Origin: Candidatus Woesearchaeota archaeon
Lineage (GTDB): Archaea > Nanobdellota > Nanobdellia > Woesearchaeales > GW2011-AR4
Direction: 5' to 3'
Assembly: GCA_018303625.1 (NCBI GenBank)
Contig: JAGVXV010000015.1
Span: forward strand, 1 to 44,549
Length of the DNA: 44,549 nt
The notes under the pieces are model-generated. The model was given only the letters and a program-made list of their open reading frames with translations. It did not search any database and was not told where the DNA came from. The translations under genes were made by a program, and so were the position numbers. Of the stretch, positions 7,152 through 38,673 are shown piece after piece (position 1 is the first letter of the stretch; every line of letters begins with the position of its first letter).

Positions 7152-7268
7152 TACGGCTGCCGGGATTCGAACCCGGATAGCAGGCTTTTTCTGCGGATTT
7201 AAGAAAAGCCGCATCCAACTGTGCAAGTTGCTGGGAAGCCCGAATCATAGCCATTAGATCACAGCCGT
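7152..7268 (-). tRNA. tRNA-Gly(CCC) with 45-nt intron
   Basis: The gene is read on the minus strand. The acceptor stem is ACGGCTG/CAGCCGT with A73, and the T-arm is CCGGG-TTCGAAT-CCCGG. The anticodon stem CGGGC/GCCTG carries one G-U pair. The anticodon loop is TTCCCA plus A after removal of an intron at canonical position 37/38. The exons (7232-7268 and 7152-7186) sum to 72 nt. The intron (about 7187-7231) folds into two hairpins, CAACT/AGTTG and TGCGG/CCGCA. Exact splice sites were not verified against a full bulge-helix-bulge fold. Position 1 is A paired with U72, not the usual G-C. Confidence 0.88.
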
Positions 7269-36904: not shown

Positions 36905-37651
36905 ATGGTATTTGAAAATCTTTTGAATCCTGTATTTTTTCCCTTATTGAAAATCCCTACTCTTTTTTCCATTATCCTGCTTTCTTTTTTGATTTCCCTG
37001 ATTATAACTTTAGTCTACAAGTACACGACTGACCAGAATTTGATGAAGCAGCTCAAGGAGGAGATAAAAAGATTGCAAAAAGAAATGAAAGAGCTGAAAA
37101 GTAATCCGCAGAAAGCCATGGAGGTGCAGAAAAAGGCTATGCAGACGAATATGAAATATATGTCGCATTCCCTGAAAAGCACTTTATTTACATTTATACC
37201 GCTGATTATAATCTTCAGCTGGATGAATTCCAATCTTGCCTACGATCCCATTTTGCCCGGGCAGGACTTTACAGTCACCGCCGTATTTGAGAAAGGCGCA
37301 AATGGGGAAATAACCTTGAATGCGCCTGAAGGCCTGGAAGTGGACAAGGCTAAAAAAGAAGTCAAAGACAGCGAGGTAAAATGGGCATTGAACGGGAAAG
37401 AAGGAGAGTACCTGCTCTTATTTGAATTCAACAATGAAAAGCATGAAAAGGAACTGTTAATCACAAAAAACCAGGCTTACAAGCCGATAGCAGAAAAAAT
37501 AAAAAACAGCCGATTGGAGCTGATAAGGATTGACAACAACCCGAAAAAGCTGCTTAATATATTCGGGTGGAAAGTCGGATGGCTTTGGGCTTATATAATA
37601 TTCTCAATAATTTTCAGCATGCTTTTAAGGAAGATAATAAAGGTTTATTAG
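36905..37651 (+). CDS. DUF106/EMC3-like membrane insertase (YidC/Oxa1 relative)
   Basis: The 248-residue protein has a first TM helix, then a cytosolic coiled coil with KQLKEEIKRLQKEMKELK. Two further TM segments are separated by about 100 residues of beta-type sequence (LNAPEGLEVDKAKKEVKD), and the third TM is at the C-terminus. Archaeal DUF106 proteins are distant YidC/Oxa1/EMC3 relatives that insert membrane proteins. The extended soluble region between TM2 and TM3 is larger than in most archaeal members. It is translationally coupled to secY, with no gap. Confidence 0.85.
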   Translation: MVFENLLNPVFFPLLKIPTLFSIILLSFLISLIITLVYKYTTDQNLMKQLKEEIKRLQKEMKELKSNPQKAMEVQKKAMQTNMKYMSHSLKSTLFTFIPLIIIFSWMNSNLAYDPILPGQDFTVTAVFEKGANGEITLNAPEGLEVDKAKKEVKDSEVKWALNGKEGEYLLLFEFNNEKHEKELLITKNQAYKPIAEKIKNSRLELIRIDNNPKKLLNIFGWKVGWLWAYIIFSIIFSMLLRKIIKVY

Positions 37652-38133
37652 CAGACATCAATTTTCTCTGCCTTTATTGCATTCTTCGGGCAGATGTCTA
37701 TTGCATCCTGAATTTTTATTTTTGGTATGAACTGCACCTGCTTTATGCCGCCGTAAACATCAAAATCATAAGGAATGCTGTTGTCTTTTATATCCAGCAA
37801 TTCTCCTTTTTTTATCTTTAGGTTATTGAAGTCGTTGAATTTTGTGCCTTTTGTGCCGACAATCCAGATGCCTAACCCTTCGATATTAACAGTTCCGGTA
37901 TTGTCAAGGATAAAATTTATGTGAGCCTTGTCTCCAGAGCCGCCAAAGCAGACTTCATGGTTTGTTTTTCTCACCTTTATCTCAACGCCGGAGCATTTAT
38001 CATCTGGATTGGATAGGTCTATATTCCTGCCCCAGTTCATCACAACAGCCCCCAAAGCTATTGCAAAAGACACCAAAAGCACTGTTGCTATCAGCGGACT
38101 TACTCCTCTTTTTTGGAAAAAATATTTTCTCAT
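37648..38133 (-). CDS. Archaeal type-IV pilin-like protein
   Basis: The 161-residue protein has the class III signal peptide of archaeal pilins, KRGVSPLIATVLLVSFAIALG, in which a prepilin peptidase would cut before GVSPLIA, followed by a hydrophobic helix. The extracellular part has four cysteines (CSG, VCFG, ICPK and a terminal C), which may form disulfides. No pilus ATPase or platform gene is nearby. It is on the strand opposite the ribosomal cluster, overlapping the EMC3-like stop by 4 bp. Confidence 0.85.
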   Translation of the reverse strand: MRKYFFQKRGVSPLIATVLLVSFAIALGAVVMNWGRNIDLSNPDDKCSGVEIKVRKTNHEVCFGGSGDKAHINFILDNTGTVNIEGLGIWIVGTKGTKFNDFNNLKIKKGELLDIKDNSIPYDFDVYGGIKQVQFIPKIKIQDAIDICPKNAIKAEKIDVC

Positions 38134-38162
38134 ATTTTTCAGAATTGCTTTGATTTTTATCC

Positions 38163-38172
38163 ATATATAAAG
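38163..38172 (+). promoter_or_regulatory. TATA box for the candidate RNA gene
   Basis: CATATATAAAG-type sequence is centred about 26 nt upstream of 38193, the first base of the long stem. Read on the other strand (CTTTATATAT), the same box could also serve the divergent pilin gene with an 8-nt leader. Confidence 0.55.
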
Positions 38173-38192
38173 ATTTTGCTTGGGAATATGAT

Positions 38193-38351
38193 ACTGCCAA
38201 GTTAAGGGAGGGTGCCATTATATTTTGCGGAAGCCAAGAACGCTGAAACGAAGCAAGGAACAGTTTTCATTCAATGAAGTTTATTTTCCAGTATCTTAAA
38301 CAATCAAAATCAAGAAAACTGCTGGAGCAAAGGCACCCTTAACTTGGCAGT
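38193..38351 (+). ncRNA. Candidate structured RNA, about 159 nt, class unknown
   Basis: The ends form a near-perfect terminal helix: ACTGCCAAGTTAAGGG (38193-38208) pairs with its complement ending at 38351. After a 3-nt bulge GTGCC (38212-38216) pairs with GGCAC (38332-38336). Nested inside are TTTGC/GCAAA (38224-38228 and 38327-38331), CAGTTTTC/GAAAACTG (38261-38268 and 38314-38321) and GTTTA/TAAAC (38279-38283 and 38297-38301). A 5' internal loop holds GAACGCTGAAACGAAGCA. The TATA box is at the right distance, and the region lacks a reading frame. I could not assign it to SRP, RNase P or box RNAs. Confidence 0.6.
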
Positions 38352-38406
38352 GCCTGAAATATTCCATATAAAAACCTTTATAAATAAAATGCCTTTCCCG
38401 GGTATA

Positions 38407-38673
38407 ATGCCTCAGCCGTATAAAAGGTCAAGAACCCTGAGAAGGGCGAAGAGAAAAGTTCCTGGCGGCAGGACGGTAATGCATTACCTGAAAAGGAAGC
38501 CCAAAGCCGCACATTGCTCTAATTGCAATGCTGTCCTTAAAGGTGCTCCAAGGGAAAGGCCGTTTAAAATGCGCTCAATGCCAAAGACAAAGAAAAGGCC
38601 TGAAAGGCCATACGGCGGGAATCTGTGCAGCAGATGCATGAGAAGGCTGCTCATTGAGAAATCGAGGGCGTAA
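38407..38673 (+). CDS. rpl34e: Ribosomal protein eL34
   Basis: The 88-residue protein has MPQPYKRSRTLRRAKRK at the start, PGGRTVMHYLKRKPK, and two CxxC pairs (HCSNC and CSRC) of a zinc site. An in-frame ATG at 38389 would add six residues. The TATA-like CTTTATAAATA near 38376 is consistent with a leaderless start at 38407. Confidence 0.94.
   Translation: MPQPYKRSRTLRRAKRKVPGGRTVMHYLKRKPKAAHCSNCNAVLKGAPRERPFKMRSMPKTKKRPERPYGGNLCSRCMRRLLIEKSRA

Follow-up and report, generated by a model that had tools for sequence, protein, structure and literature searches.

The window analysed here, a stretch of 44,549 nucleotides of Candidatus Woesearchaeota archaeon DNA (contig JAGVXV010000015.1), carries a pilin gene and a divergent eL34 gene, and between the promoters of the two sits a 165-bp copy of a structured element (38190-38354), which begins and ends with GATACTG...CAGTGCC and is matched over its full length by our models R1 and R2. 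The locus had been described in an earlier note, made from the sequence alone, as an uncatalogued structured RNA gene with nested stems and no reading frame. The nested stems are present inside the terminal helix and no ORF spans the element. Rfam 15, at curated as well as relaxed thresholds, contains no family matching the window copy or the other copies tested, and at the curated score no covariance model matches the element, those of SRP RNA and RNase P RNA included, so that the fold is indeed uncatalogued. Rfam matches the window at one place alone, a tRNA on the - strand (7152-7268), whose spread over 117 bases suggests that it holds an intron. A scan of positions 38100-38450 detected no intrinsic terminator.

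The folding energy of the + strand of the window element was reached by one of 200 shuffles (z -3.1). As the - strand folds equally well (z -4.3), single-sequence folding energy assigns no strand to the element and was dropped as strand evidence. The terminal helix had been read as 16 bp continued, after a 3-nt bulge, by GTGCC/GGCAC. The 16-bp pairing is perfect and well above chance expectation, ACTGCCAAGTTAAGGG at 38193-38208 being exactly complementary to 38336-38351, but the continuation counted one C twice; comparison of the copies gives P1 an outer helix of 13 bp, a 5' bulge of 4 nt and an inner helix of 6 bp (Table 1).

Table 1. The element copy, its helices and the flanking features in the window.
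Feature	Positions	Strand	Basis
Pilin promoter TATA box (gene at 37648-38133), not part of the element	38163-38171	-	conserved in relatives without the element
Putative decayed target duplication, left copy, TGGGAATAT	38181-38189		6/9 match ungapped; weak for the window copy alone
Whole copy of the probable mobile element	38190-38354	+	full-length R1/R2 match; 11 more copies in the genome
P1a 5' strand, left terminal inverted repeat	38194-38206	+	pairs with 38338-38350
P1 5'-strand bulge, 4 nt	38207-38210	+	comparison of copies
P1b 5' strand, GGTGCC	38211-38216	+	pairs with 38332-38337
P2 5' strand, TTTGC	38224-38228	+	pairs with 38327-38331
Purine internal loop, 5' side, GGA	38229-38231	+	faces GGA at 38324-38326
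P4 5' strand, CAGTTTTC	38261-38268	+	pairs with GAAAACTG, 38314-38321
P4 3' strand, GAAAACTG	38314-38321	+	pairing with 38261-38268, covariation
Purine internal loop, 3' side, GGA	38324-38326	+	faces 38229-38231
P2 3' strand, GCAAA	38327-38331	+	pairing with 38224-38228, covariation
P1b 3' strand, GGCACC	38332-38337	+	pairs with 38211-38216
P1a 3' strand, right terminal inverted repeat	38338-38350	+	pairs with 38194-38206, covariation
Putative decayed target duplication, right copy, TGAAATAT	38355-38362		as left copy
eL34 promoter TATA box (start codon ATG at 38407), not part of the element	38377-38384	+	conserved before eL34 in relatives

The divergent pilin/eL34 gene pair is kept across the family, and in most relatives (L217, L220, L232 and others) the gap between the two genes lacks the window element and holds little beyond two TATA boxes, one facing each gene. 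The TATA box that had been taken for the promoter of the RNA exists, but it is that of the divergent pilin gene and is found at the same place in relatives without the element (GTATTTAAAGATTTC, GGTATATAAAGATTTC). No common upstream promoter was seen when the flanks of other copies were read by eye. In a second genome, Ca. Woesearchaeota archaeon RIFCSPHIGHO2_02_FULL_44_15 (G008), other, rearranged copies of the element occupy the same intergenic region, and unrelated small inserts are found there in L229, L230, L234, L221 and L224; the region resembles a site permissive to insertion.

The window copy is not alone. Its own genome (G000; 1.34 Mb in 58 contigs, 95% complete) holds at least 12 dispersed copies according to a covariance model built from nine of them, and a sequence search of the same genome found, besides the window copy, ten diverged copies of 70-89% identity. 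The genome of RIFCSPHIGHO2_02_FULL_44_15 carries 54 copies, and with the second model these two were the only carriers among 36 genomes of the family. With the first model, G025 and G010 each yielded a single weak copy as well. Nine of 353 genomes of the same order match the element. In a sample of the phylum the third model matched 16 of 371 genomes, all labelled as same order or own, with 1-7 matches per positive genome among the seven candidates scored in each. The element is thus missing from most relatives and its distribution is patchy; the suggestion that it is possibly clade-specific is supported insofar as matches are confined to one archaeal order among the genomes searched. A scan for the core pattern through named genomes and viral contigs gave model matches solely in contigs of RIFCSPHIGHO2_02_FULL_44_15, the remainder being chance hits. 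The weak match in G010 (L083, C1:19371-19534) has a similar core and very different ends (GCGTTTCGCAAAGG), possibly a further type of element ends.

Several copies are flanked by target duplications of 8-9 bp, some of them perfect, as in G195 (GTGGAGTGG), G181 (TCATCAGAA and TTTTCCCCA) and G171 (GGAAAATA and AATTTTTA). Direct repeats of 9 bp matching at eight or more bases flank 7 of 48 copies, compared to 0.085 expected from mispaired flanks. The copies with clean duplications set the position of the duplication in the window copy, where it aligns as TGGGAATAT / TG-AAATAT. The outer GGAATAT/ATATTCC, previously read as an extension of the symmetry of the helix, lies outside the element and other copies are flanked differently, and these bases would be better read as a decayed target duplication. 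The element is short, contains no protein gene, has terminal inverted repeats and a duplication of fixed length, and is multicopy, dispersed and mostly intergenic, as is characteristic of a MITE. A 447-bp stretch of G008 (L287, C55:2516-2962) reads as three mutually nested copies.

With genes called simply as ORFs of 80 codons or more, 49 of 50 copies are intergenic. Sides of the element that face a gene end lie within 25 nt of the stop codon in 28 of 49 cases, whereas sides facing a gene start lie that close in 5 of 46 (p 1.7e-6). This clustering is compatible with selection removing insertions close to promoters and sparing those behind genes, and it would put the fold of the element in the 3' regions of transcripts.

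Side by side, the copies in G000 show a terminal helix that varies in sequence and stays complementary around a common interior core. The three closest copies are 92-94% identical in the interior versus 72-78% in the arms; over all nine own copies there is little difference between them (0.71 and 0.75). In the nine-copy alignment, for which the structure was not used, 98% of cells are paired, both partners have changed in 14 of 32 pairs (7 of 13 in P1a) and none of the shuffles attained the observed values. The 42-copy alignment from two genomes and that including distant families were fitted to the model and hence lean towards structure: in the former 94% of cells are paired, 26 of 35 pairs show changes in both partners, and the covariation score is 0.467 compared to 0.181 in shuffles, none of which reaches it; in the latter the score is 0.704 versus 0.194, and in the outer helix each of the 13 pairs has variants of both partners. 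Sliding either of these alignments by one column made the covariation fall steeply. Comparative folding, proposed in the earlier note, thus brought up many compensatory stem changes in all three sets, as is characteristic of a conserved structured RNA, and we regard conservation of the predicted fold as strongly supported by covariation.

The internal helices P2 and P4 covary as well. Every P2 pair is changed on both sides among the 42 copies, and variants such as TTTTGC/GCAAAA, GAGGC/GCCTC, TTGGAGT/ACTCCAA, GCATCT/AGATGC and CTGCT/AGCAG replace each other. The purine internal loop between P2 and the inner helices, GA facing GA or GGA facing GGA, is kept in nearly all of the 42 copies, and in some distant copies GCGAGCGAGG stands opposite CCGAGCGAGC, an arrangement that fits two consecutive GA/GA steps. 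The 4-nt 5' bulge of the outer helix is regular in G000 and variable in G008. Across families the terminal helix is rewritten and remains complementary, while a small core is retained. In some copies (L024, L026, L082, L074, L075, L077-L079 and L081) a further long hairpin, palindromic in sequence (GCACGCGAGC..GCTCGCAAGC or GATTTGAACGCGAGCC..GGCAAATCTC), adjoins the P2 3' strand, and its position is shared by three genomes.

The mismatches in the helices bear on the strand. Were pairing at the DNA level the sole requirement, G.T mismatches would be expected as often as A.C mismatches. On the strand read, which is the + strand in the window, the 42 copies have 43 G.U and 13 A.C mismatches with the extreme ends excluded, and 27 and 5, respectively, within P1 (binomial p about 1e-4, ignoring the relatedness of the copies). 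The excess lends real but partial support to selection on the + strand RNA, partial because ten distant copies have 7 G.U versus 8 A.C and thus no excess.

A possible mover of the element may be sought through its ends, whose outermost bases in G000 read approximately GRYAYTG. Insertion of IS1 makes target duplications of 8-9 bp, and in G185 alone the ends of an IS1-family element, GGTAGTGTTCT, with a flanking repeat matching at 8 of 10 positions, resemble the GATACTGTTCT end of that genome's structured element. Both G185 and G236 have an IS1 transposase. An IS1-derived MITE should share its genome with an IS1-family transposase, and searches of G000, G008 and G181 found none; IS1595 transposase was likewise not found in G000, G008, G010 and G025. 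Neither G000 nor G008 yielded a transposase partner for the element, and reading by eye revealed no ORF-sized pair of similar ends in either. An inverted-repeat-like pair in G000 (C13:5199/6911) was considered as the mover and rejected, as none of the ORFs between was recognised as a transposase on reading. In G171 the same core lies within different ends (GTACGTATTTAG) with an 8-bp duplication, and as these ends are unrelated, the core has been joined to at least two sets of ends. At C13:12650-12882 of G008 (L286), similar inverted ends, GGTGTTGTCAAGTTAAG / GGCAATTTCAAGTTAAG, surround a different palindromic interior of 233 bp, possibly another non-autonomous element that would use the same transposase.

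Based on these data we consider it very probable that the element is a MITE-like mobile element with a selected fold, and we are highly confident that its movement would depend on a transposase supplied in trans. We propose that such a transposase recognises the terminal inverted repeats and moves the non-autonomous element into intergenic DNA, where insertion would generate the 8-9 bp target duplication; the window copy would have landed in this way between the divergent pilin and eL34 promoters. The inverted repeats would also serve as the closing helix of the conserved fold, which is predicted to proceed from P1a through the 4-nt 5' bulge to P1b, P2 with its purine internal loop, and P4 capped by an A/T-rich loop. 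Selection probably acts on an RNA and not solely on DNA. Most likely, transcripts of neighbouring genes would run through the element and the folded RNA would render the insertion harmless or useful, for which the fold would be selected. That the RNA acts in cis, as a stable intergenic or 3'-end RNA sparing or steadying the neighbouring mRNAs, is our best but tentative guess.

If the element were an ordinary MITE, the inverted repeats would matter solely for transposase binding, the paired changes would arise when template switching corrects the quasipalindrome, one arm being rewritten from the other, and the interior would be passenger DNA. Inverted repeats, target duplications and multiple intergenic copies are all compatible with this, as are the good folding of both strands and the loss of the G.U excess in distant copies. 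However, neither the bulge nor the loop of facing purines should survive correction of the arms, and yet both are kept; close copies preserve their interior better than their arms, the core outlasts replacement of the ends, and G.U exceeds A.C in the 42 copies. This explanation accounts for the ends and not for a covarying interior with conserved mismatches, and we find it improbable. A small RNA gene serving the host, acting in trans from a promoter of its own and happening to have multiplied, is very improbable: a covarying fold conserved across several families of the order is what such a gene would show, but presence is patchy, copy number ranges from 1 to 54, copies carry target duplications, the claimed TATA box is that of the pilin gene and the flanks of other copies share no upstream promoter by eye. 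The reading as a single RNA gene, given in the earlier note, is not supported; the locus holds one copy of a repeated, patchily distributed and very probably mobile element, bounded by terminal inverted repeats and, in several copies, by clean 8-9 bp duplications.

The persistence of the core within changing ends raises another thought, which we hold unlikely: the RNA fold might itself be transposable and survive a succession of transposases, the core with its purine loop being inherited and the ends, which also form the closing helix, rewritten for each transposase. In that case the RNA would be needed for spreading, e.g. through recruitment of a protein of the host, or to keep host transcripts from harm. 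Returning to the MITE-like element with a selected fold, it adds a family of very probably mobile elements, with evolutionary support for their RNA fold, to a group of archaea in which transposons and small RNAs have scarcely been described; among the papers searched, none reported MITEs in DPANN or Woesearchaeota. As its ends change and its RNA core stays constant, the element offers a natural series in which to ask whether the RNA of a MITE is selected. It also calls for caution, since what looks like an isolated structured sequence between genes may, in a draft genome, be one copy of a transposon.

Like archaeal SRP RNA and RNase P RNA, the element would be an intergenic structured RNA of some hundred nucleotides, but unlike them it is multicopy, very probably mobile and without a match in Rfam. 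With the IS1 family (Pfam PF03400) it shares, in G185, similar ends and direct repeats of similar length, from which the lack of a detected IS1 transposase in G000, G008 and G181 and the unrelated ends around the G171 core set it apart. Among bacterial MITEs a transcribed structure is known for CIR of Caulobacter, Correia/NEMIS, ERIC and RUP (PMC2229807, PMC10969869), and a phylogenetically conserved RNA structure was proposed for the CIR elements (PMC2229807). The woesearchaeal element resembles these in being short, intergenic and multicopy, in its inverted ends, target duplications and lack of a transposase, and in transcripts predicted to fold. Unlike the bacterial MITEs reviewed, which mostly end in TA, it has duplications of 8-9 bp; its host group is archaeal, it shares no sequence family with them in Rfam, and the fold of its core persists through wholesale replacement of the ends.
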